A stretch of DNA of 45,476 bases from a virus, in IMG/VR virus record IMGVR_UViG_3300046170_000250, positions 1 through 45,476 of that record. One strand, given 5' to 3'. Positions 1-34,975 of the stretch are shown here, piece after piece. Both the position numbers and the translations under genes were made by a program. Under the pieces are notes generated by a model that was not told the DNA's origin, made no database searches, and saw nothing but the letters and a program-made list of their open reading frames with translations. Numbering within the stretch: position 1 is the stretch's first letter; each line of letters opens with the position of its first letter.

Positions 1-2282
1 GGTTATCTATGCTAAACCCTTTGCTAATCATTTCATCTTTATCCCATTGATAAGATCTTGCGGCTTGATTTATTTTAGAAAGCTTAGAAGAAACAGGTGG
101 AGATATTTTAGTAAGCTCATAACCAACTTTCTCAAGCTTAGGCATTTTCTTTTCTTGCTCACGAATAATACGTATAATAGCATTTTTACCTACAGATACA
201 GCAGCGCCACCAACACCAGTTCCTCGCAATATAGAATCAGCCATACCATTAGCTACATCTATATATTTGTTAGTATACTTTTCGTCATCAGCATCTGCCT
301 CACCAAAAGCTATAGCAAACAAACCTTGTTGCAGCGAGTTGAATATTAAATTCTGTACAGTGGTGTAATATATAATTTTACTAATGTTTGTTTTAGCGTC
401 TCCTCTGCCAGCTTTTAAATCTTTAATAGCTTTATCTGTCAACCTTACATACTGTGCAGGAGTGTTACCGTATGCAAGTATAGGACGGCCTAGCGGTCCT
501 GCTTGTTGCATAGATATTCTATCAGGTCTTGACGACTGCTGAGATTCTTCTGATATCTCTCTAAAATCTTCAAATGCTTTAGCTTCTGCTTCAGCTGTAC
601 TAAGCCCTTGCTTTTCGTAAGTCTTAACTCTGTTACGATAAAACGTAGCGCCACCAGATGCAATAGCAAAGCTATCAGCTATTTGTGTAGGTGTAAAACC
701 AAATTGTAATAATCTATTAACAACACCTCTTGGCCCGTTTTTATTAGCAGCCTCTGCAATATCAGCTTCGTTAACATTCATACGTAAACCACCGCGACGT
801 TCTTTTAAGAAGTCAGAGTTCATTAAGTATTTAAAGTCCTTCCAGTATTGTTTTTGGTTACCAAAAGCTTTAGCTGCTTTAAGCGGATTGTTATCTGAGA
901 AGTTAACAAAGTTAACTGATGATAACGTTTGTAGCAATGCTGATCTTGTGTTGAAGAACATTGTTACACCGATACTACCGTTAAGCCAGTCTGTGAATTT
1001 ACCTGTTAAGCTATCATCTGAGAAAGATCTGTTACGACCAGTCTTCATACGTTGTAAACTATTTTCTATAGCTTTACGATACTTCTTACCATACGCAGCC
1101 TCGAGTTTGTTCAAGTTTGCCTCACTAAATATTTCATCTACATTTGTTTGCCACTGCTCTAAATACTTAGCGCGCTTAGTAGTATTAAGACCTTCTAATA
1201 AGTCAGTTGTAATGCTACCAGTAAGCCATGTTTCTTTTGGCTTAGCATATCCATCACCCTTATTTATTGCAACTAATTGTTCTGCAAAAACTTTTAATTC
1301 AGGATTGTTATTGACAAACTCATTTAATGTTTTTAAATCTGCTTTACTAACACCTGGTACTTCCATACCTTGTAATTGATTCCAAGTATATACTCTTACG
1401 GCTTGTTCTTTAGTGTAAGGTTCGCCTGGTAATTTTTTACGTAAGTCTTTAGGTATAACTCCAAGTTCTTTTTTCAAAGACTTGTAGTCATTCATCATGG
1501 CAATCCTATCTCTTGATATATCGTTTACACCTTTAGCAAACGGATCAAGAAGATTATACTTATACCATGCCATTTGTTGATCACCCAACTTACCTTTACC
1601 TAATGTCTCATAAAGCAAACCTGTAAAGTCTTGAGCTGAGTAAGGTATGCCTTTAAATATACTACCTTTACTAGCGCCAACAACTTGAGCTTTAGCTCTG
1701 CTATATACTTTGTCAGCACCAATACCAGTTTTAGCCTCTATAATATCGTTAAAGTCTTTATTAAGATCTACAGTTTCACTAAACATAACTTTAGCTTGCT
1801 GTGTTTTAGATTTAACATCAAACACTTCTAGCGCATTGCGTACAGCTTTAACATTTTTATAAGCGTCGTCTACAAAGAAAAAGTCGTTATAACCTTCAGC
1901 TGCTTTACCAGTTACCCAACGTGCTTTAGCTTGTGCTTTACCGTCGCCTAAACCTACAATGTTTTCAATAGGTATTTTAACGCCAAGCGCATCCATAAAT
2001 TCTTTGATAGGACCAGCAGCATCAGCAGGTCGAGCTGTAAGTATAAATACATCTTCAGCACCACGTTTAGCTACAATGTTTTCTATAGCCTTTAAACACA
2101 GGACCTTTTTTACCGTCAACTACTTTACTAAACTCAGCAAAATCAAATGTAGCTCCTTGAGCTTCTAGCTCTCCAGCTCTTTCAGCAAACTGCGTAGCGT
2201 TTAGTTTGCCAGTCTTACCATCAGGCATCTCGTATATAACCTTGCTATTAGATCTAGCTAGTGTATCATCAAAATCAAACAC
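1..2282 (-). CDS. Giant internal virion protein, C-terminal part (HAD-like domain), truncated at window edge
   Basis: This is the last visible part of a protein that starts at 8027. The frame runs open from the junction near 2300 to base 1, apart from one break near 2091, where removing one G from a GG joins GPVFK to AIENIVAKRG. It opens with a HAD-superfamily phosphatase-like domain: motif I FDFDDTLARS, motif II ILTARPA, a lysine-bearing GDGKAQAKARW and motif IV FFFVDDAYKN. A long helical region follows. Near the edge it carries the motif QAGPLGRPILAYG, of a kind I associate with large polyvalent phage proteins. It is the most promoter-distal gene visible, the place of T7 gp16-type ejection proteins. 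A role in DNA ejection, with the protein injected or held in the capsid, is inferred. Phosphatase activity is untested. The C-terminus lies outside the window. Confidence 0.75.
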
Positions 2283-2292
2283 ACGTATTTTT

Positions 2293-5244
2293 TTAACTGG
2301 TGCCTTTAGGATCTCTAGCTACTTTTAAAGCTTTGTCTAGTGTGCTTAGTTCCTCTATTACTTTTTCATTACTTTGTTTTTCAGTAAAAGATAACGATGG
2401 TGGTAGCTCACCGTTGTTTTTTGTTTCAGCTTTTGTTTTGCCTTCAGAAAGCTTAACATATTCATTTATTAATTTTTGAGCTTGGTTTCTAGTAACAGCT
2501 TTAGATCCTTCTAAGAAACCAGCTTCTGTACGTATTACATCATATATTAAATCTCCTGCTTTATTTATAACGTTAAGATTTTTTTGATATTTTTTAGGCA
2601 CTTGAACATTATACCTAGCAGCATCCGTTATACCTTCTCTTACTATAGTAAAAGGATCAAGCGTAACGTATTCATTATAAGCTCTTATCATGGGATCTAT
2701 AACATTAGAATAATCACCTGATTTTTCAGCTCGCTTATAACTTTCTACTTGTAAAGGGTGAAAATCAAATTTACCCCTCCATTGTTCCGCTGGTTCACCT
2801 TTTTTCGTTTTTGTATATGTGGTATCTAATTTGTTAGAAGCGTCTTTACTTAATTTTAATTGAAAGTATTGCTTCTTAGCCATATCTTTAAAAGAATTAA
2901 AAGCTTCTCTTGAACCTGTAACTGCTTTTAAAAATTCATTCATAAAAGGACCATACTGCTGCACATGTTCTTCCCATGTTCTTTGACCTTCTTTTAAACC
3001 TGTTTGTCCACCAGTCAACGTCGCTGCGTCTCTAAAAGGATTTTGATTTGAATTATAACTATAAGTTACAAAAGCTATTTCAGGTAAAAGATTAGGATTT
3101 TTTTCATATATTTTTCTATACCCTTCAAATAGTAAATCTATTCCTTTATCTATTAAAGCTTTATCTTTTGTGTTTTGCTCAGCGCTAAATCTTTTGTGTG
3201 TTAAAGCTCTTTTAATAGCTGTTATATCTTCACTGCTAAATATACCTTTTTTATTTGCAGTTTTTATTTCTTTTCTTAATTGATTTAAACTACCAAGTTC
3301 TCCAGCAGCTACAAGATCCGCGGTATCTTTATACTCTTTGCTATTTTCACCATATTTTAAAGCAGCTCTACCTGGCTCTGTTACAAATAAATAACCTCCA
3401 CCTATAGCACCACCACCTTTTTTCTTTGATCCGTCTTTTTTATAACTGTAAGCTCTGTTGCCAGCAGTACTTAAAACTTTAGCAACTGTTAGTATTTCAT
3501 TTGTTAACTCAGAACCAAAAACATCTAAAGCATCACCTTTAGCAAAACTTTTTATTTTATCTAAACCAGTTTTACCTACAGATATTAATTCAAAACCTTT
3601 ATTTTTAACTATGTCTTGTTTGTTTTTCATTACACCTTTAACAGGTGGGGTTGCTTCTTTTATTTCTTTAGCAAACCTAGTGCCGCTGCTTAATCTTTTA
3701 GCTGTATCAGGAACCATTTCTTCCATGATTCTATTACGCGTAATAAAATTAATACCAGCTTTAAAATGCTGCGCGTCTCTATACAAAGGCATTTTTTTGC
3801 CTGTTTTAGGATCTATTTTATTAAACTCTACACCATTAACAATAGTATTTTTACCATCAAAAATATCTTTAAATTGTTTAAAAGTTCCTACAAGTTTACC
3901 TTCTTTATTGTAAAAAGCTTTACCTATTGTAGTTTGATATATACCAGTTGCTTTAGGTGTACCCTCAGCGGGTTGTGTTTTAGTTTTTGGTAGCGTTGAC
4001 CAAAAGTAATTTATATTTTTACTTATAAATTGTTTAGCAGCTGTAGCGCCAGCTGAGTTTTCTTTATTCCAATTACGTTTTGGGTCTGCTAATATTTCTA
4101 AACCAACCTTGTTATTCATACCAAGCATGTCAGCATAAAGCTCTATAACTTTTTTCGGTGGTGTAGCTTGTTTAATTGATGAAATTTCTTTATCTTTAAA
4201 GGCTTCTTTTATAGCTTCAGATTCTGCTTTTAAAAACACTTCTTCACCCGTTAAATTCTCTAACTCTTTTTTAGTTAAATTCTCTAACGCCTTTACTTTG
4301 CCAGATTTTTTAATTTTATCCACAACTCTATTAAGTTGTTCTGATATATATTCAGTAGCTTCACTAGGTTTTTTTGGTAAACCTTTTTCTAAAACTGTAG
4401 TGCTCTCGACAACTCCTGGTTCTACAACCATTTTTTCTGCGGCACTGCCTTCTATGCGTGTAGTTTCAACCTCGCCTTTCTTTAATTGCTTTAAGATATT
4501 ACCATAACGTAGCTTTAGTCTGGGTGCTAGGTAAGCTCCAAAGTTAATTCTTTTACCAAGATCTTCTGGCTTACCTGTTACTACTATTGGTTCGTAGTTA
4601 TTTATAATTTTAGTTAACTCTTCGTTATATCCTTGTTCAAATTCTTGAACTGTTTTTCTTTTACCTTTTTCTAAAGCTAATATTTTAGGATTGTTAGCTG
4701 CTTGGAAAGCTAATTTCTTTACTAAAGGTCTATTGATTTCTTCTAGTTCCCTAACGACTTTTTCTCTAGCCTCGCCTTCTAATTCTGAAACTTTAAACGC
4801 ACCTTCTTGTATTATTCTTTCTTCAACTTTTAAGTTTCTAGAAGCTAATTCTTTATTAGTCTCTGATATTTCTTTAGCTTCTCTTACTTCTGACACAACC
4901 TCTTTACCTGTTTCAATGTCTACTAATTTCTTACCATCAATAACTATATCTTGAAATTGCTTAAACTTTTTTCCAATGATTCCAGCACCTCCACTTTCTA
5001 CAACTTCACCAAACCCATCTAAAAAGTTTACAAGTTGATTAGCTGTAGTAAAGTCTGTCTTGCTATTAAAGTTTAAACCAGCTTTGTTACCGATGTTTAC
5101 TATAGTTCTTTTTACACCTGCTAATAAACCAGGTTCAAGTAATAAGTCTCGATATTTAGGTTGTCTTAAAAAATTAGTTACATTAGCTACGTACTCTTCT
5201 GGTCTGCTAGTCTTACCATATGATTCGTTTATAGCCTTCTTCAA
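2293..5244 (-). CDS. Giant internal virion protein, third part
   Basis: Continuous with both neighbours once two single-base breaks are repaired. At the upstream end (near 5235) dropping one G of a GG joins DLTFEE to AINESYGKTSRPEEY. At the downstream end (near 2300) dropping one base joins ARDPK to APVKKIRVFDFDD. About 980 residues, lysine- and glutamate-rich and largely helical by composition, with a charged coiled-coil-like stretch around residues 120-190 of this part (ELASRNLKVEERI). I recognise no catalytic motif here. The apparent ATG start at 5244 is internal, not a real start. It probably forms the extended helical body of an ejection protein. That function is inferred from position behind two other core-type genes and from size. 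Confidence 0.7.
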   Translation of the reverse strand: MKKAINESYGKTSRPEEYVANVTNFLRQPKYRDLLLEPGLLAGVKRTIVNIGNKAGLNFNSKTDFTTANQLVNFLDGFGEVVESGGAGIIGKKFKQFQDIVIDGKKLVDIETGKEVVSEVREAKEISETNKELASRNLKVEERIIQEGAFKVSELEGEAREKVVRELEEINRPLVKKLAFQAANNPKILALEKGKRKTVQEFEQGYNEELTKIINNYEPIVVTGKPEDLGKRINFGAYLAPRLKLRYGNILKQLKKGEVETTRIEGSAAEKMVVEPGVVESTTVLEKGLPKKPSEATEYISEQLNRVVDKIKKSGKVKALENLTKKELENLTGEEVFLKAESEAIKEAFKDKEISSIKQATPPKKVIELYADMLGMNNKVGLEILADPKRNWNKENSAGATAAKQFISKNINYFWSTLPKTKTQPAEGTPKATGIYQTTIGKAFYNKEGKLVGTFKQFKDIFDGKNTIVNGVEFNKIDPKTGKKMPLYRDAQHFKAGINFITRNRIMEEMVPDTAKRLSSGTRFAKEIKEATPPVKGVMKNKQDIVKNKGFELISVGKTGLDKIKSFAKGDALDVFGSELTNEILTVAKVLSTAGNRAYSYKKDGSKKKGGGAIGGGYLFVTEPGRAALKYGENSKEYKDTADLVAAGELGSLNQLRKEIKTANKKGIFSSEDITAIKRALTHKRFSAEQNTKDKALIDKGIDLLFEGYRKIYEKNPNLLPEIAFVTYSYNSNQNPFRDAATLTGGQTGLKEGQRTWEEHVQQYGPFMNEFLKAVTGSREAFNSFKDMAKKQYFQLKLSKDASNKLDTTYTKTKKGEPAEQWRGKFDFHPLQVESYKRAEKSGDYSNVIDPMIRAYNEYVTLDPFTIVREGITDAARYNVQVPKKYQKNLNVINKAGDLIYDVIRTEAGFLEGSKAVTRNQAQKLINEYVKLSEGKTKAETKNNGELPPSLSFTEKQSNEKVIEELSTLDKALKVARDPKGTS

Positions 5245-10836: not shown

Positions 10837-12261
10837 TTAATAACTTGATTCTACGTAATTAGAAGAAACAGCAAATAATTCTTTTTTACCGTTAGGATCT
10901 GTGGTTGAATCAGTAGATAATTTTACCGTAACTAAATAGCCTTTAATACCAGAAACACTTTCACCATATAAAACTTCTTGTGGTTGCGGCTGGCTATTGT
11001 TTTTTATAGCAGACATATACTTGTTTTCTTTTCTATTAAAACCGTATCGCTGTACAAAGTAACCACCTGATATTGTTAAAGAATCCCAAGAAGAATCTAA
11101 AGGAGTAACTACAGTAGAACCGTTTATTATGTATTGACCTTCTTCATAACTAGCTATAGGTATAGCTGAATCTGCAAAAGCTGTAGGAGTACCTGAAACC
11201 GTATCAAATTCAGTAGCATCAGAAACAATACTTTCTACTTTCCAACCATTAGTGCCTTCATAATTAATAGTGCTAAAGTTTTTTGACATTGAAACTTTAG
11301 GGTTAAATATTAAAGTTACTGTAGCTGGTTGTGATATTCCATAAAAATTATTATAACTACCAATATAATGCTGATATATTTTGTTGCCATTAGTAGTATA
11401 AAAATTATTTTTTAAACTAAATATTTGGCTAGGCTTATAATTATAAAAACTAATCCAACCCTTAGGTCTTTCGTCATACGCCAAAGTTTTATAATTACTA
11501 TCGGTAGTTGGGTTTAATTCCCAAGGTTGAAAAGAAGTTACATAGCTTTTAGCATGTATATCCCAGCCTCCTTTTATAGCTCCTATCTGACCACTACCAC
11601 CATCTAAATTATTAAGCTCATCTCTAAAAAAATCACGCATACCATAAGAAGATATCTCAGTAATGCCATCTTGTGACAGTCTTAATACAGCATTTCTTTT
11701 TCTATCAGTAAAATATTTTCTATAACCATAAACAGCAAAGCTGCCAGGATCTTGGCTTATACCGTACTTACCAGCATAAGGTACTATTTGACCTATAACC
11801 ATAGCTCCTGAGGTTGTAATAGCAGAACCTTCAGCAGAATAAATCGCGTCTTTATCTATTAAAGCTCTACTAACTTTATCTTCTTGAAATATAGTTAGGT
11901 TAGTATTTTCAGCATACAACTTTTGTATAGACCCGTTCTGTGGATCTAAACTTCTACTAATGTCTTCACCTACTGGAAAAACATTTGTATCATTCACACC
12001 TGTTCTAGAGTTAAATATACCAGAATAAATAAGAGAATTAAACCTTATAGAACCTGTGTTGTTTTCAGAAACAAGATAAGCTCTTGGTCCAAAACCTACA
12101 GACACACCGTTAAATCTACCTTTAATTCTAGACTCTTCTATTATCCAGTTTCTAGACGGTGTTGATGTTGACGGCTTGTATGCTGGTACGTCTGTTGTGC
12201 CTTCAACAGTCTTTCTTAGTAAGAAGGAATTAAAATATTTAACTTCTATTGTAGCAGACAT
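10837..12261 (-). CDS. Tail structural protein, probable beta-rich hub/stabilisation component
   Basis: An intact 474-residue protein, very rich in Gly, Asn, Ser, Thr and Tyr with short beta-prone segments. Regions such as IQKLYAENTNLTIFQEDKV (about residues 113-131), YGYRKYFTDRKRNAVLRLS and DGITEISSYGMRDFFRDEL read like beta-propeller-type tail stabilisation proteins of short-tailed Bacteroidota phages. In some relatives I believe equivalent segments lie in the same polypeptide as the large hub protein upstream; here they are a separate gene. There is no signal peptide and no enzyme motif. The assignment is from pattern memory and position, so the exact tail component is uncertain. Confidence 0.5.
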   Translation of the reverse strand: MSATIEVKYFNSFLLRKTVEGTTDVPAYKPSTSTPSRNWIIEESRIKGRFNGVSVGFGPRAYLVSENNTGSIRFNSLIYSGIFNSRTGVNDTNVFPVGEDISRSLDPQNGSIQKLYAENTNLTIFQEDKVSRALIDKDAIYSAEGSAITTSGAMVIGQIVPYAGKYGISQDPGSFAVYGYRKYFTDRKRNAVLRLSQDGITEISSYGMRDFFRDELNNLDGGSGQIGAIKGGWDIHAKSYVTSFQPWELNPTTDSNYKTLAYDERPKGWISFYNYKPSQIFSLKNNFYTTNGNKIYQHYIGSYNNFYGISQPATVTLIFNPKVSMSKNFSTINYEGTNGWKVESIVSDATEFDTVSGTPTAFADSAIPIASYEEGQYIINGSTVVTPLDSSWDSLTISGGYFVQRYGFNRKENKYMSAIKNNSQPQPQEVLYGESVSGIKGYLVTVKLSTDSTTDPNGKKELFAVSSNYVESSY

Positions 12262-23441: not shown

Positions 23442-24773
23442 TCAACGAGGTTCAAACTGTTCAAGTCCAAATCCTCCTAGTGAGTCAAATCCAGATGACT
23501 CAAAGTTTTTAGGTAGTTCATCGTTTTGACGCTGCGAAATCATTTCGGATTGCTGCGTACCTATAATTCTAGCACGTTCGTCTTTACGATCTTCTATTTT
23601 ATCTTCTTTTTCTTTTTGAGCTTCTACGTCTAATCTAGCTAACTGCATGTCGTATTGAAACTTTTGCTCCATTAGCTGCCGCTTTATTTGAGCTTCCATT
23701 TCCATTTTTTGTATATCAAATTGAGACTTACCTTGTTCAAGTTGTAACTTGCTTTCAGTTAAAGCTTGTTGCTTTTGAACTTCAGCCATGGCAGCTTTTT
23801 CAGCTGACTGTGAGTTTGCTTGCGCTTGAGCTTGTATATTCATTATATTAGCTCTTTGTTTTTCTTGATCTCTTATTTTTTGCCTATACTTTAAAAATTG
23901 ATTAGCTAGTTTTAAATTTTGTATTTCTCTAATATCAATAGCGTCAGATAATTCTATTGATTGATTTTGCAAAGCTATCTGTATATTTTGTTCTAGTTTA
24001 TTTTTTTCCTCTTCTTCAGGTTCTAATTCTAAAAATATACCAAACTCATGCATAGATAGGTTTTCAATTTCTTCTAAAGTAGCTACATTAAAACTGTTTA
24101 TAGATTTCAACAAAGCGTTTTTAGTAAGAGGAAAAGCCATCATATCAGCTAACCTAAGACTTATGTTTTCAGAAGCACGTATTGTTAAATACATAAGTGA
24201 CTGAAGTATATGTTTTGTAGCTGTATTAGAAGCAGCCGCCGCTAACTTTTGTAAACCAACCAATGAATCTTTATCAGGTTTACTACCATCTCTAGCTTCG
24301 TTAAGCCCGGTTACATCACGTATCATTTGTAAATAATACTGATACGTTTGCACTAACGATTGTATTTTTTGTATACCAGAAGATGTCTGAAGTTCTTGTA
24401 TTGGTACTTTACCTCTATTTGGATCACCATCTTGAGTTAAACTTCTACCCACAATACTACCAGTTTGGAAGTACATGTTTAAAGCTTCTTGCGGATTATA
24501 GTTTGTGCCATTACCAAGATCTACCTCTGCTAAGCCATCTACATCTACAAATACACCATCAGGTACCATACGCGCTAGTACTTGTTGTATTTTTAAATGT
24601 GTAAGCTGTATCATATCGGCAAAACCAATACACCTACTTACTAAACTATCTATACGACCTTTATATATTCTTGGAGCTGTAATACTATAGTTCATTTGAA
24701 CTTTAGTTTGATCACTATAAGGACGTGTCATATTCTCAGCTAACTCCCACTTTAAGCATTTTTTCGTGGCCAA
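23442..24773 (-). CDS. Portal protein, C-terminal part
   Basis: The last 443 residues of the portal gene that starts at 25860. The apparent start is internal; removing one A from a run of six near 24766 joins YSGAKILGHEK to CLKWELAENMTRPYS. It contains portal-like helices (KGRIDSLVSRCIGFADMIQL; LAAAASNTATKHILQSLMYL). It ends in a long Gln-rich coiled coil (KAAMAEVQKQQALTESKLQL onward), as barrel or tunnel extensions of podovirus portals often do, and a Phe-rich tail. The full portal is about 805 residues, long compared with T7 (about 535) but in the range I recall for crAss-like phages. It forms the dodecameric DNA channel at the capsid vertex. Confidence 0.7.
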   Translation of the reverse strand: MATKKCLKWELAENMTRPYSDQTKVQMNYSITAPRIYKGRIDSLVSRCIGFADMIQLTHLKIQQVLARMVPDGVFVDVDGLAEVDLGNGTNYNPQEALNMYFQTGSIVGRSLTQDGDPNRGKVPIQELQTSSGIQKIQSLVQTYQYYLQMIRDVTGLNEARDGSKPDKDSLVGLQKLAAAASNTATKHILQSLMYLTIRASENISLRLADMMAFPLTKNALLKSINSFNVATLEEIENLSMHEFGIFLELEPEEEEKNKLEQNIQIALQNQSIELSDAIDIREIQNLKLANQFLKYRQKIRDQEKQRANIMNIQAQAQANSQSAEKAAMAEVQKQQALTESKLQLEQGKSQFDIQKMEMEAQIKRQLMEQKFQYDMQLARLDVEAQKEKEDKIEDRKDERARIIGTQQSEMISQRQNDELPKNFESSGFDSLGGFGLEQFEPR

Positions 24774-25464
24774 GTATTTTAGCTCCGCTATATAAAACCT
24801 CTATTGCTCGATGTACCTTATTATAGTTTTCAGCATTTTCAGGTGGATTAAAAGAATCGTCTTTTTCTAAAGCTTTTTCAAGACCTTGATCTGTTTCTTT
24901 TATTTTAAATACTTGGTTATTATAAGTTTTATATTCAAAAAATAAAACCTGAACTTGATTGTATTGATCATCTTGACCGTAATAATTACGGGTATAGTTA
25001 GCAGTTACCAGGATATTTTTGTATTTCTTCTAATTCTGAATCTGTTAAATAAGGAAAAAGTTTTTTAACTTCTTGCTAAGCTCATTGACTTTCATTTCAC
25101 CTACATAATAAATATCTTCAAAGTTAGGATCTTCTGTATATGAATAAACTAAATTAGCAGGATCTACATAATCAACAGTAATACCATTAGCTAAATTAAA
25201 ATTTGTTTTAACAGCAGATATACCTAAAACAACTAGATCATAAGCTAAACGTTTTTTTAACTTCTTCATACTTGTTATAATCTAAAACATTATTAATAAG
25301 CTCCTCTTCCGCTATTTCTATAGCTTGCTTATAATTTAACTGCATGATAAAGCTCTAGCTCTTCTACATTTTCAGGTAGTTTAGACTCATGTAGCACTAA
25401 GTTCTTCCTAGTAAACCACCTAAGTTCTTCTATTTGTTTCATTTTTGCCAATATCTCTTAAAGC
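24774..25464 (-). CDS. Portal protein, central part (multiple frame breaks)
   Basis: No single long frame spans this stretch, but successive frames read as one protein. In order they give MKQIEELRWFTRKNLVL, LPENVEELELY then MQLNYKQAIEIAEEEL, and LDYNKYEEVKKRLAYDLV. They then give SAVKTNFNLANGITVDYVDP, LVYSYTEDPNFEDIYYVGEM, KKLFPYLTDSELEEIQKYPG, TANYTRNYYGQDDQY and VLFFEYKTYNNQVFK. Frame changes of one base occur near 25446, 25355, 25255, 25072, 25006 and 24766. The DPANLVYSYTEDPNFEDI region resembles the portal clip/wing. All breaks are small and local, so I read them as sequence errors in one intact gene. Confidence 0.65.
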
Positions 25465-25860
25465 TCAATAGCGTGATTTGTTCTTTCTTAACAGCAAAGG
25501 ATCTGAAGCAAATGATTTTATTTTATAACCTTTATCAGTCATACCATTTACTACAATATCTACAAATTTAGATAATACAGCTACTGGTTTCCAGTCTAGA
25601 TTTAAGTAAGATAAATCACCATTAATAGAAAGTTCATCTTTATATTTAGCAACTGACTGCTCGCCTCTAGCGTATAGTCTAAGTCTGTGAAAGTCTTGCC
25701 AACTATTACCAAAACGACCACCAGCTCCTAAACCTTTGTCACCTCTAAACCATTCGTTTTCAATAGCTCTACCTACGGCTAAGCCGTAATCATAAGTATT
25801 TTTCTCTGCGTCTGGTACTACCTGACTTGGAAAAGAACTATTAACATTAGTATAAACCAT
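25465..25860 (-). CDS. Portal protein, N-terminal part
   Basis: True start of the portal gene: ATG at 25860, directly adjacent to the terminase stop (25861-25863). It reads MVYTNVNSSFPSQVVPDAEK, then WQDFHRLRLYARGEQSVAKY and DWKPVAVLSKFVDIVVNGMT. The last two are typical of portal N-terminal halves (helix-rich, Arg/Tyr-containing, followed by the VVNG turn). The frame ends artificially at 25465. Adding one T near 25497 restores SDPFAVKKEQITLLS, which leads into the central part. The terminase-portal-scaffold-capsid order supports the call. Confidence 0.75.
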   Translation of the reverse strand: MVYTNVNSSFPSQVVPDAEKNTYDYGLAVGRAIENEWFRGDKGLGAGGRFGNSWQDFHRLRLYARGEQSVAKYKDELSINGDLSYLNLDWKPVAVLSKFVDIVVNGMTDKGYKIKSFASDPLLLRKNKSRY

Positions 25861-26424
25861 TTATTTTATTATTTTTGAAGAATAACCTGTGTTATCGTAT
25901 TTTGTAAAATTAATACTAACTGGCTCTTTTTTTATTTCAGCCACTGGTGAGTATTTGTTTTTGTTGCAAGCCATTATAGCTAAACCAGAACTTATTGTCG
26001 CGTCGAACTTTGTTCTATTGTTTATGTTAAACTTAGCCCAGTCTTCAAGTGTACGTTGAAAATACATTTGACCATACTCAGTTTCTTTTAAACCTACGTG
26101 ATCTTCTATATAAGATTCTATAGCAGCGGCATGCGCTTGTTTAATATCCTCGCTAGAGTTAGGTATACCACCTATTTCTCTTTCTGCAACTGAAAGCTTG
26201 TTAAATGTTTTGTCAGGTCTATTTATAGAGAAGTTTCTATAACCTCTTCTTTTTAAATAATACAATAGCCTTGGCTTGTTATTCTCTGCTAGTATAGGCA
26301 TACCATAAAAATGTAAAGCCATAAGCACATCTTCAAAGAATATTTCAGCTGTTGGAGGTCTTGATATATATTCTAAAAAGAACATATTAAAAGGAGCTTC
26401 TTCCATGCTAAACTTTGTAAGTCC
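25861..26424 (-). CDS. terL: Terminase large subunit, C-terminal part
   Basis: The final 185 or so residues of TerL. One G of a GGG near 26425 is probably extra; its removal joins GSKGSLHG to LTKFSMEEAPFNMFF. Notable segments are YISRPPTAEIFFEDVLMALH and KFDATISSGLAIMACNKN, the latter at the position of the last acidic nuclease residue in TerL RNase-H-like domains (KFDA). The C-terminal nuclease domain cuts the concatemeric DNA during packaging. The gene ends immediately before the portal start. Confidence 0.7.
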   Translation of the reverse strand, partial: GLTKFSMEEAPFNMFFLEYISRPPTAEIFFEDVLMALHFYGMPILAENNKPRLLYYLKRRGYRNFSINRPDKTFNKLSVAEREIGGIPNSSEDIKQAHAAAIESYIEDHVGLKETEYGQMYFQRTLEDWAKFNINNRTKFDATISSGLAIMACNKNKYSPVAEIKKEPVSINFTKYDNTGYSSKIIK

Positions 26425-26895
26425 CGTGCAAAGATCCTTTAGAACCTCGCTTATCTACTGTACCTGATATATCATATGAGTCACATCCAAAAGCACCTAC
26501 GTGCTCGTTACCTGGATGTTTAACTCCATTCTTTATTATTACACGATTTTGTAATATTGCAGGTGGAATCCAAGATACTAAAAACCTACCATTATTTTCT
26601 GGTATAAAATTAACTGTTGTATCTTTTACTCCTCCAGTCCATTGGAAATTACCTTGCGTTACTAAGGTTTTATTTCTCATGTCTTCGTTATAATCTATCT
26701 GCTCGTATATTTTAGTTAGATTAAATAAAGATAACTTAGCTTCATCTCTGAACGCGTGTTTCTCTGTACGTGGAAACTGGCGGTAGTATTCGTTTAAGCT
26801 ATCCTGGTCATTTTTAAGGCCATCTACTTCATTTTCCCAGTGTTCGATAACACCTGTTGTGATGAAGGTCTCCGTGCGGATCTCTAACTGGCGTC
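26408..26895 (-). CDS. terL: Terminase large subunit, middle part (nuclease domain start)
   Basis: Open in one frame from about 26895. It reads RRQLEIRTETFITTGVIEHW, SLNEYYRQFPRTEKHAFRDE and, after MRNKTLVTQGNFQWTGG, the segment VGAFGCDSYDISGTVDKRGS. The last has the GCDSYD aspartate expected of a TerL RNase-H-fold nuclease (first metal-binding acid on a beta strand). The 5' boundary is a one-base break near 26893, where inserting one A into an A run restores DKPKRRQLEIRTE. The YYRQFPRTEKHAFR segment is also characteristic of large terminases. This part links the ATPase to the nuclease. Confidence 0.75.
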
Positions 26896-28089
26896 TTTTG
26901 GTTTGTCGAATACAGGTATGCCATAAGCATCAATGAATCCCTCGTAGTTCCATTCCATAGGTATGAACAAAGAATATAATCCTGAGCTAGTCTGTCCATT
27001 GCGGTTCCTTTGTGTAACATCTGATGCATAATATAATTTCTTAAAATTCTCACCGCCTTTATCCAAAGCGTTTGATGTTGAACCCATCATACATTTACCT
27101 ACAACTCTACTACCTAATCGCAGTGTGGTTTTTGTAACCCTCCAGTTGTTTAATATGTTATCAGGTCTTTCCCATTTACCTGATTCATCGTGTACTAACA
27201 GTTTTAGTTTTTCACCATCATAACTGTTATCACCTGTATTTTTCCAGTCAATAGTTGTATCAAGTCCTACAACTTCTTCTGCGGTTTCACCTTGATCAAG
27301 CTTACGTCTGGTAAGCTTCGACGCGGGGACTCTATAAGCAAGTTCCGTTTTTGGTCGGTCCATACCGTCTTGTATGGGTCGAAAGAAGAACGGATAGTTG
27401 ATAGAGATCGGTACGACTTTGTCGGTGAACATTTTTTTAGCATCACCCCCTGACTTTGATAATATACCGAATCTCGAGTCTGAGCTAATTGTTGCCTGGT
27501 TAACCGTGTCTGCTGAAGCCATAAATGAGAAACCAGATCGTCGGTTTTTGAGGTAGCACATACCATAGCATCTCTGGTCTGCTTTGCAAGCTTCCCAGAA
27601 TATAAAGAATAATCTGTTTGATTCCCTATAGTCTGCTGCCCCAACGTCAATCTTACTCCACTGCAAGAACATATAGTGAGAACCAGTAATGTAAGTAGCC
27701 AAACCTCTATTATAGAACCAATAACCTTGTTCACGTCTTTTAAATTCTTCATCTATGTAATCGTACCATTCTTCTTTAAAACTATTAGGATATCGCTGCC
27801 AATCAAAAACACTTTTTATTTTCGATAAAGCTTTTGGATATTCTGCTTTAACCCACACCTGTTCTTCTGTTTTTTTAGAATTACTAAAAACATTTTCAGG
27901 TTTTTTAGGCAATGCTATTTTGAGATTTTGTATCTCAATTATTTCACCTATGGTTCCGTCTTTACTAATGACAACAACATCATACTCTTTGTTATAACCA
28001 TACTCCCACTTTTTGCTTTTGTTATTTTTCTTAAGCACATGAGGTTTTATATGATCTGTAAGTACAGTAAATAAATTTTGTTCGTACAT
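26884..28089 (-). CDS. terL: Terminase large subunit, N-terminal ATPase part
   Basis: This begins at the ATG at 28089, overlapping the previous stop by one base (TAATG). SFKEEWYDYIDEEFKRREQG and YITGSHYMFLQWSKID precede a divergent Walker A region, CYLKNRRSGFSFMASADTVN (no classical GKT/S; this RRSGFS form occurs in several phage TerL families). Walker B is KLLVHDESGKW and the coupling motif is GKCMMGSTSNAL. After joining the three parts the enzyme is 742 residues. It powers DNA translocation into the procapsid and cuts DNA by headful or site-specific cleavage. I see no small terminase in the window. Confidence 0.85.
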   Translation of the reverse strand: MYEQNLFTVLTDHIKPHVLKKNNKSKKWEYGYNKEYDVVVISKDGTIGEIIEIQNLKIALPKKPENVFSNSKKTEEQVWVKAEYPKALSKIKSVFDWQRYPNSFKEEWYDYIDEEFKRREQGYWFYNRGLATYITGSHYMFLQWSKIDVGAADYRESNRLFFIFWEACKADQRCYGMCYLKNRRSGFSFMASADTVNQATISSDSRFGILSKSGGDAKKMFTDKVVPISINYPFFFRPIQDGMDRPKTELAYRVPASKLTRRKLDQGETAEEVVGLDTTIDWKNTGDNSYDGEKLKLLVHDESGKWERPDNILNNWRVTKTTLRLGSRVVGKCMMGSTSNALDKGGENFKKLYYASDVTQRNRNGQTSSGLYSLFIPMEWNYEGFIDAYGIPVFDKPKDAS

Positions 28090-28911
28090 TACTTAGATCT
28101 ACCTTCTGCAAAACCTTGAAAAGATTTTTGTTTGTTATTACTTGATTTATCTTCAAGCATGTTTTCCTCTTCTTCGATACGGTTAAGTATTTCGAAAGCG
28201 TCGAATATAGCTAGCTTTTTTGTAGCAGCTGCGTTCTTAAGTCTATCAGCAGATATATCATCATCTGAATCAACTATAGGTTCTTTAGCTACCTTTATTA
28301 ATTCCTCAACTGCTCTCGCCCAGCTTGGATTATATTCTTCTTCGTTTCCTTTGAACTCATACTTAACTAAAATATCATTTGATTGCATACAGTATAGTCT
28401 TTGTTTGTTAACAACAAACTCAAACTCTCTATTAGATTTAAACCCAACAAGATCACCTTCGTTTATACCTAAAGTTTTTAAGGTTTTATTACCTATCTTT
28501 ACTATACCTTTATTTTTTACTTCTGGTTCTTGTGACCAGTCGTCTGTATTTTTTATTGGCATTATAAAACAATGTTCACCCAAAGGTTTCCACTGGTATA
28601 TATTTTTGTAAAGATATATTTGATCTAATTGGCATAGGTATTGATTATCGTTTAGCGTTTTGCTACTATCAACCTCTTTACCTTTTTGGTTATAATATCT
28701 TCTAAATACGTTGTGATGTATTATAACCTCGTCACCCTTCTTCTATTGGTGTTGAATAAGCTGATGGTGTAGAAATAACTATAGCTTTTCTACTTATTAA
28801 CTTAAAGTTTTCTATACTAGAATTAACTATAAGTTTATTACCATTTATATCAACTTCATTGTCATACCTACTTTCAACAGGCGTGACTATAAAATCAAAA
28901 ACACTCCTCAT
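28089..28911 (-). CDS. Tandem GroES-like domain protein next to terminase (one frame break)
   Basis: The two frames join near 28733 by dropping one G of a GGG (STPIEE to GDEVIIHHNVFRRYY), giving 273 residues. Two segments match the order of elements in GroES. Domain 1 (about residues 1-100): FDFIVTPVE, then KAIVISTPSAYSTPIEEGDE, VIIHHNVFRRYY and DNQYLCQLDQIYLYK. Domain 2 (about 100-190): LGEHCFIMPIK, then GIVKIGNKTLKTLGINEGDL, VGFKSNREFEF and KQRLYCMQSNDILVKYE. Both fit GIV--IG / --GD-V-F / ---Y-----DIL-. A charged helical tail follows, including ADRLKNAAATKKLAIFDAFE. The known precedent is T4 gp31, a GroES-fold capsid-folding cochaperonin. A cochaperonin or structural use of the fold is inferred. 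Confidence 0.6.
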
Positions 28912-32729: not shown

Positions 32730-33173
32730 TTATCTTTCTTTATCTTTATTGACATTGTTAATAGCAAATGAATAAACTTTATCGCTATAGCTTTTGCCTT
32801 TCATTATACTGTTGCGCCTAGTACTAGTGGGTATATCCTCTTCACCAAGCATTATTTTATATACTCTTGATATTAGTTGTTTGCCTTTGAAAGAAACTTT
32901 ATATATATTATACTTCTGTGTAGTTCTATTGTTTCTTCGCCAAAGCGTAATCCAATCATTTTGTAAAAGCTTGTTCCATCTACGATTATCCCAACTAAAA
33001 GAATATGTACCGTCTTCAAAATCTTTTCTAGTAAACATATCCATGCAGTCTAAATATATTAAAAGCTCTAGCTCTGCATCGTTTAAATCATTATTTTTAC
33101 AAGCCCACTTACGTATTATACGATAGTGTTTAAGAAGATTTAAATCCCTAATGTCACTAGCATCTATTCTCAT
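32730..33173 (-). CDS. Winged-helix-like protein
   Basis: An intact 147-residue protein, Arg/Lys/Trp-rich and helical. LKHYRIIRKWACKNNDLNDA, then ELLIYLDCMDMFTRKDFE, then RRWNKLLQNDWITLWRRNNR and TTQKYNIYKVSFKGKQLISR are arranged like the helix-helix-wing of MarR-type winged-helix domains. The basic YNIYKVSFKGK wing supports DNA binding. I recall highly similar proteins in uncultured marine phages, unannotated. Its start overlaps the groES stop region by four bases. It may be a regulator or a small packaging-related DNA-binding protein; it does not look like a classical TerS. Confidence 0.55.
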   Translation of the reverse strand: MRIDASDIRDLNLLKHYRIIRKWACKNNDLNDAELELLIYLDCMDMFTRKDFEDGTYSFSWDNRRWNKLLQNDWITLWRRNNRTTQKYNIYKVSFKGKQLISRVYKIMLGEEDIPTSTRRNSIMKGKSYSDKVYSFAINNVNKDKER

Positions 33174-33434
33174 AGCACAACTACAACGTCTACATCTCGT
33201 ATAACATAAAAAACTTGCTTGTCTACTTCAAGCCTGTGGCCAGCGTTTTTATCATAGAATATTGTTTGACCTTCTTCTACACCTTTAACGTCGTCACCAC
33301 AATGAAGTATAGTCGCTTCTTTATAACGAATATCAACTCTTTGTTTACCAGTTAACATAAGACCACCGTCAGTTTTTTTGACAGGTGTCTTCTTTTTTCT
33401 TTTTTATTACTATATTTCTACCTACTGCTTTCAT
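33170..33434 (-). CDS. groES: GroES cochaperonin (one frame break)
   Basis: Reconstructed by eye: ATG at 33434 gives MKAVGRNIVIKKKKEDT. One T near 33385 is extra; the frame then continues VKKTDGGLMLTGKQRVDIRY, KEATILHCGDDVKGVEEGQT, IFYDKNAGHRLEVD and FYVIRDVDVVVVL, 87 residues in all. Each GroES element is present: N-terminal strand, GGLML mobile-loop anchor (GGIVL in E. coli), GDDVKGVEEGQTIFY (the VG--VK-VK-GD-V-F region) and the DIL-type end (DVDVVVVL). It caps the GroEL chamber. It overlaps the end of groEL by 17 bases, and the order is groEL then groES, the reverse of the usual bacterial operon. Confidence 0.8.
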
Positions 33435-34975
33435 CTCCAACTCTTAAATTATTGATTACACAATCTGTAGATAATATAGTGGTAGCCACTGAAGCCGCGT
33501 GTTTGAGTGCGCTTTTAGTTACAAGTAAAGGATCTATAATCCCTGTATCAACCATGTGAACAGTTTCACCTGTAACTACATTAACACCCATACCTTCTTC
33601 GGGCGTACCAACCTCTTCTAGTCCAGCGTTATTTAGTATAGTTTTAAACGGAGCTTTAATAGCTTCTAGCAATATCTTTTCACCAACGGTTTTACCTTTA
33701 GTTTTATTAGATGCATCGCGAAGAGCTATACCACCTCCAGATACTATACCTTCTTTTACCGCGGCTTTAGTAGCACAGATAGCATCTTCGACTCTATCTG
33801 ATTTTTCTTTCAACTCTATCTCTGAGTTAGCCCCTATTTTTACAACTGCAACTTTCGCTGATAGTCTAGCTAATCTTTTTTCAAGTCTTATAATTTCACC
33901 GGGAGCTTTAGCTTTAGATATTAGTTTTTTAACTGAATCAATTAAACGCTTTATCTCGTCAGTAGAAGTATCTACTTGAAGTATTGTATCTGTATCACTA
34001 GTTGTGCTCTTAAAACATGATCCTAGGAAGTCTGGGTTTATAACATCTAAGTCATCACCAAGATCTTCATTGATAACAGTAGCACCGGTTAGCATAGCTA
34101 AATCAGACATTGTGTCTTTTTTGTTTATACCATATGTAGGTGCGTTTACTACATTTACTTTTATATTACCTTTAACCTTATTCATTGCTAGCGTAGCTAA
34201 CACTTCGGTTTCTAAATCACCAATAATAAGTAAAGGCTTTTTGTTTTTAATTACGTATTCAAGTACCGACTGAATCTTACGTACAGATTCTATAGGTGAC
34301 TCGATTAGTAATACAAGTGGGTTATCAAGCTCTGCTATACGTTTTTCTTTGCTTGTTACAAAGTGAGAGTTTGTTAAACCTTTTTCGTACTGCACACCAT
34401 CGACGAGTTCAAACTCTGTCTTGTCTTCTGTTGTAGGTTCCATTATAACAACACCGTTTTCACCAGCAGCTTTAAAAGCATCACCGATTATTTTGCCAAG
34501 CTCAGCATCGTTGTTACAACTAATAGCAGCTACATCATCTAGCATACTACCTTCTACCTGCAATAACCTTTTTTTCTAAGTAATCAATTACTTTATCAAC
34601 AGCACTTGTTATGCCGTTTTTAATATTACGTATATTATCTTTATCGATATTTTTATACGCTTCAGTTAAAATTGAGTGCGCTAGTACTGTAGCCGTTGTT
34701 GTTCCATCGCCAGCTTCTTGAACAGTTTTTCTAGCAGCTTCCTTTAGAAGCGTAGCACCCATATTTTCTACTGGGTCTAATAGTGTAATAGCGTTTGCTA
34801 CAGTTACACCATCTTTTGTAATGACAGGTTTTCCCTGATCATCTTCTAGTATTACACATTGGCCGCTAGCCCCAAGTGTGGAGCTAACAGCCTTTGTTAG
34901 TTTATCTATACCTTTAAACACCTTATCCTTAGCATCTTGGCCAAAGTTAAGATTTTTGACAATTTTGTCAGTCAT
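33418..34975 (-). CDS. groEL: GroEL chaperonin, phage-encoded (one frame break)
   Basis: Two frames join near 34551 by dropping one G (YLEKKVIA to VEGSMLDDVAAIS), giving 518 residues (E. coli 548). ATP site residues are present: TKDGVTV (D52 region), AGDGTTTATVLAHS (D87 region), RVEDAICATKAAVKEG (D398 region) and GIIDPLLVTKSALKHAASVA (D495 region). The usual TLGPKG turn reads TLGASG. The apical domain is recognisable (KPLLIIGDLETEVLATLAMN). The C-terminus ends NNLRVGDESSR with no GGM repeat tail. It presumably folds phage proteins, such as the capsid or the very large tail proteins, inside the host. It is separated from the tail-associated genes by a short gap. Confidence 0.9.

Follow-up and report, generated by a model that had tools for sequence, protein, structure and literature searches.

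The window, which is the whole 45,476-base contig IMGVR_UViG_3300046170_000250, very probably carries a working phage group I chaperonin operon composed of groEL, groES and a 147-residue ORF, and its products probably fold phage structural proteins. The chaperonin genes stand in the reverse of the bacterial order. Both genes, their order and their common strand are kept in 80 of 80 relatives, which bears out the preliminary description of a complete phage pair. The same description called the arrangement notable for a short-tailed phage, and this was not supported. It is fixed in the 80 relatives sampled and occurs in deposited short-tailed phages, namely Elemovirus, Podoviridae sp. ctfjg026 (MW202828) and Maribacter phage Panino. 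Marine et al. (2017, as quoted in PMC9611531) reported a connection between the order of the subunits and the phylogeny of phage GroELs. A pair in this order is known in kind and is widespread in one large phage lineage.

The groEL-groES locus

The genes lie on the minus strand. groEL occupies positions 33418–34975 (518 residues in intact relatives) and is present in the contig as two ORFs in different frames, 34975–34547 (142 residues) and 34563–33418 (381 residues). Both pieces match the Pfam family Cpn60_TCP1 (PF00118) above the cut-off, covering profile positions 1–108 and 119–487, and also match phrog_5725, 'chaperonin groEL'. groES occupies 33170–33434 (87 residues in intact relatives) and has a frame break near its 5' end. 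Its start (ATGAAAGCAGTAGG...) sits in a different frame from the C-terminal 62 codons, which are open from 33358 to 33170 and match phrog_3188, co-chaperonin GroES, with an E-value of 1.8e-5. Each gene is one base over a whole number of codons, consistent with a single-base break in both. The break in groES had been recognized earlier; the one in groEL had been missed. The two genes overlap by 17 nt (33418–33434), where groEL ends in DESSR-stop and groES begins with MKAVG. The 147-residue ORF (32730–33173; phrog_17028, function unknown) is directly downstream and overlaps the groES stop by 4 nt. Its product looks winged-helix-like by eye. The 62-residue groES piece had no match in phage records by tblastn at an E-value of 0.1, so profile searches were needed, and a DNA-level search of phage records returned nothing beyond short pieces of groEL at about 70%.

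Conservation among relatives

A scan of IMG/VR gave at least 596 candidate relatives, and 80 of these were fetched for comparison. groEL is a single open frame in all 80 and encodes 513–523 residues where complete. groES (86–88 residues) follows 3' of groEL on the same strand in every one, the co-conservation that the preliminary description had proposed to check. The overlap is exactly 17 nt in 73/80 relatives, and is 20 nt (3), 4 nt (3) or 1 nt (1) in the remainder. In the shared bases, which are mostly ATGAARGCNRTNGGTAR, the groES frame starts with MKA(I/V)G and the groEL frame ends in DESNR-stop or close variants. Four near-identical contigs from other samples (L003–L006) encode proteins 98–100% identical to the pieces in the window, and in these the genes are unbroken, with a groEL of 518 residues, a groES of 87 residues and the 17-nt overlap. 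These contigs match the earlier prediction of an 87-residue GroES that starts 17 bases inside groEL.

The 147-residue ORF is the next gene after groES in 80/80 relatives, and in 78 of them its ATG is placed a single base ahead of the groES stop codon. The overlaps and the conserved ORF indicate that the three genes are one tightly packed unit. Pairwise dN/dS ratios (Nei-Gojobori) were about 0.03–0.15 for groEL and 0.02–0.27 for groES, values that place both genes under purifying selection. A chance arrangement is excluded by this selection and by the retention of the pair, in the same order and on one strand, in all 80 relatives.

GroEL and GroES keep the ATP site and the mobile loop

The intact GroEL of L003 matches PF00118 over residues 26–508 (E = 2.5e-55). 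In the PDB it matches group I GroELs best (E = 1e-111), and the top solved structures are those of an ancestral Fibrobacteres-Chlorobi-Bacteroidetes chaperonin and of bacterial GroELs. By these sequence matches the phage protein is a group I chaperonin (Cpn60). All of the ATP-site residues checked are kept: T30, G32, K51, D52, G86, D87, G88, T89–91, I150, D398, G414, G415 and D495. The apical surface that binds substrate and GroES differs from that of E. coli at Y199L, S201N, Y203H, L234Q, V263A and V264M and retains F204, L237, L259 and N265; GroEL of a Flavobacteriia host keeps the E. coli apical pattern. The changed apical residues suggest that client and lid specificity may differ from those of E. 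coli GroEL. The inter-ring contact residues are poorly conserved, so the ring may be single or double, and the protein lacks the GGM tail at its C terminus.

The intact GroES of L003 matches PF00166 (Cpn10) above the cut-off (E = 6.9e-8), and its AlphaFold model (pLDDT 85) matches solved GroES/Cpn10 structures. A mobile-loop motif, GG-L-(L/M)-L, is found in nearly all of 44 GroES sequences and aligns with the E. coli GGIVL; G24, L25 and L27 of the loop are invariant or nearly so. The linkage of the two genes in 80/80 relatives suggests that this GroES caps its own GroEL.

A second, tandem GroES gene lies beside terL

A second GroES-like gene, absent from the preliminary description, is located at 28311–28911 on the minus strand. 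It encodes 201 residues in relatives; in the window it is frame-broken and continues at its end into its neighbour. This neighbouring gene (28089–28361, minus strand) encodes a probably helical protein of about 90 residues directly upstream of the terminase large subunit gene, terL (25861–28089, minus strand), which is in at least two frame-broken pieces (28089–26884 and 26406–25861). The contig looks error-rich and its ORF calls need care; terL and a gene that is probably the portal (23442–25465) are both split. In L006, the tandem GroES gene (11343–11945) overlaps the gene for the 90-residue protein (11893–12162) by about 56 nt, and the latter abuts terL. The 90-residue protein had no family match and may be the small terminase, for which it is a candidate.

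The tandem protein matches phrog_13932, 'co-chaperonin GroES', end to end over residues 1–183. Pfam Cpn10 scores below the cut-off on the L006 copy and above it on the copy of Cellulophaga phage phi38:1. The structural model (pLDDT 84.5) gave a full-length Foldseek match, covering both halves, to the chloroplast Cpn20 structure 7ekq_R (E = 5.4e-5, TM about 0.53–0.55). The model and the profile matches identify the predicted product as two GroES domains in one chain, similar to Cpn20. Among the matches listed there were 41 distinct copies, two of them from named phages. The tandem GroES, the ordinary GroES and GroEL occur together in 15/15 larger related contigs. Elemovirus, phi38:1, Panino and ctfjg026 have a TerL-side tandem GroES at this position or displaced from it by one gene. 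In phage phi13:2 a gene annotated as GroES lies one gene away from terL; a GroEL match was found in nine Cellulophaga records, and phi13:2 is not among them. Annotators labelled the TerL-side gene GroES or cpn10, and a limited literature search turned up nothing on its two-domain make-up.

Proposed function

The phage GroEL is expected to form an ATP-driven folding ring, which GroES would cap by means of its mobile loop, which is hydrophobic and conserved. The 17-nt overlap probably couples groES translation to the end of groEL. Expression is supported in the related phage phi38:1, whose GroEL peptides were detected in infected cells and in free-virion samples (PMC13288928). The clients would most likely be phage structural proteins (capsid, tail, tail fibre) that are poorly handled by host GroEL. 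The genes upstream of groEL (tail fibre and tail-fibre assembly) differ between relatives, so proximity to the tail fibre alone does not identify the client.

It is unlikely that GroEL/GroES instead works on proteins of the host, or has a moonlighting role in packaging or within the virion. The altered apical groove and the position of a second GroES-like protein next to terL would fit such roles, as would the GroEL peptides in the free-virion samples of phi38:1. GroEL in virion samples is, however, explicable by lysate contamination, and the conservation of the ATP site and the mobile loop speaks for an ordinary folding cycle.

The frame breaks are private to the contig

Mapping the ORFs of relatives onto the window showed 3 of 17 genes broken with L004 and 2 of 14 with L006, compared to 0 of 13 between L004 and L006. 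The relatives, including the four near-identical contigs, are unbroken, and by this comparison the breaks are private to the contig and most likely reflect sequence or assembly error. The groES break is therefore most likely not real in the population, as the preliminary description had supposed. An overcall of A runs at both breaks was considered as the form of the error, and comparison with L003 did not support it.

A decaying pseudogene copy in a phage that relies on the host chaperonin would also have split genes, and groEL, groES, the second GroES-like gene and terL are all split here. This reading is very improbable, since near-identical contigs from other samples are intact, terL, an essential gene, is broken likewise, and no breaks separate the relatives from one another. 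Scattered breaks of this kind, in essential genes that are unrelated to one another, indicate a problem of sequence quality. Programmed ribosomal frameshifting to join the pieces of groEL and of groES, which A runs close to both breaks might suggest, is rejected for the lineage because none of the 80 relatives has a break or needs a shift and groEL is one open frame throughout.

Host, phylogeny and origin of the gene order

TerL matches among named isolates are only to phages of Bacteroidota (Flavobacterium, Cellulophaga, Tenacibaculum and Maribacter), and the neighbouring genes are of phage type (tail-fibre, holin, TerL, portal). The contig is from a short-tailed (podovirus-type) phage with a probable Bacteroidota host, in line with the earlier assignment. 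Maximum-likelihood trees were built with chromosomal GroELs from Flavobacteriia, Sphingobacteriales, Rickettsiales, Chloroflexi and E. coli, and subunit order was scored from sequences and annotations. The window GroEL groups with phage sequences apart from the chromosomal GroELs. All sampled sequences with groEL-groES order (26/26), the window among them, form one branch with support of 99/96. The groES-first order is found in bacteria and in phages immuto, phi38:1 and DAC19, and order switches once across the tree, consistent with a single origin of the reversed order. The placement of phi38:1 as sister has support of only 92/76, and long branches make the deeper joins uncertain. L130/L154, for which a check gave no proof of phage origin, also falls within the order clade.

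These trees, which the preliminary description had suggested to check for host contamination, leave next to no room for a Bacteroidota host segment or a recent capture of a host groE operon: although identity to host GroEL (41%) nearly equals that to other phage GroELs (34–40%), the protein is in the 99/96 phage clade, the gene order is the reverse of that in the chromosomal groE operons checked (MAGs and E. coli), and the surrounding genes are the phage-type ones named above.

Contigs L090–L109, which belong to this phage group, sit in bins of GTDB that carry the labels Euryarchaeota, Aliivibrio, Chloroflexi, Woesearchaeota, Rickettsiales and others; they are probably misbinned phage and were not read as hosts. 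L086 (CAKLQH020000021, 'Acinetobacter phage MD-2021a') looks bacterial, with pckG, bmrU, groS-groL, dgkA and acrB. The L082 contig (G023) has GroEL/GroES sequence at 1819–3529 and at 63399–65115, at opposite ends, and one of these is a partial second copy, which is either a second cassette or a product of chimaeric assembly.

Comparison with known chaperonin systems

The reversed pair is already annotated in the Elemovirus and ctfjg026 records. Elemovirus phages of Flavobacterium (e.g. vB_FspP_elemoE_6-9C, NC_055854) share with the contig groEL followed by groES on one strand, another GroES gene immediately 5' of terL and a Bacteroidota host. Their GroEL is about 40% identical, the other neighbouring genes differ, and the overlap is 1 nt rather than 17. 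Phage ctfjg026, with a genome of about 61 kb, has groEL followed by an overlapping cpn10, a terL 64% identical to that of the contig and, likewise, tandem GroES-like and 95-residue protein genes upstream of terL, but its GroEL is only 34% identical. Panino (PP540027), a podovirus by TEM (PMC11590407), belongs to the same order clade and has groEL upstream of groES and a TerL-adjacent GroES; unlike the contig, it has a small ORF between groEL and groES and a 77-kb genome. The related genome of phi38:1 (Callevirus) has GroEL, Cpn10 and the TerL-adjacent tandem GroES, whereas its order is Cpn10, ORF, GroEL. A group of putative Flavobacteriaceae phages with GroEL in 36 genomes was described by Nishimura et al. 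in 2017 (PMC5332604).

More distant systems share less with the contig. The E. coli groES-groEL operon encodes the same two protein families with conserved ATP-site residues, but groES is first, there is no overlap, GroEL is 39% identical, and there are differences in the apical residues and in the C-terminal tail. Pseudomonas phage EL gp146 and Bacillus phage AR9 gp228 are also phage GroEL homologues and are described as co-chaperonin-independent (PMC9598537). The EL protein is 26% identical, and unlike in the contig no adjacent groES was found at the EL locus.

Implications

The reversed order of the pair has been stably kept by a large phage lineage, most of it uncultured. The presence of a tandem GroES by terL in the same genomes raises the question of why one phage has two lids. 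One tentative idea is that these phages use two lids of their own, one a single-domain GroES produced alongside GroEL and the other a Cpn20-like tandem GroES produced alongside the packaging genes. If so, the Cpn20-like protein would be an alternative cap, or would act in terminase, portal or head assembly and not in general folding. A lineage that combines a strongly selected full chaperonin with changed groove residues is a good natural test of what phage chaperonin clients are.
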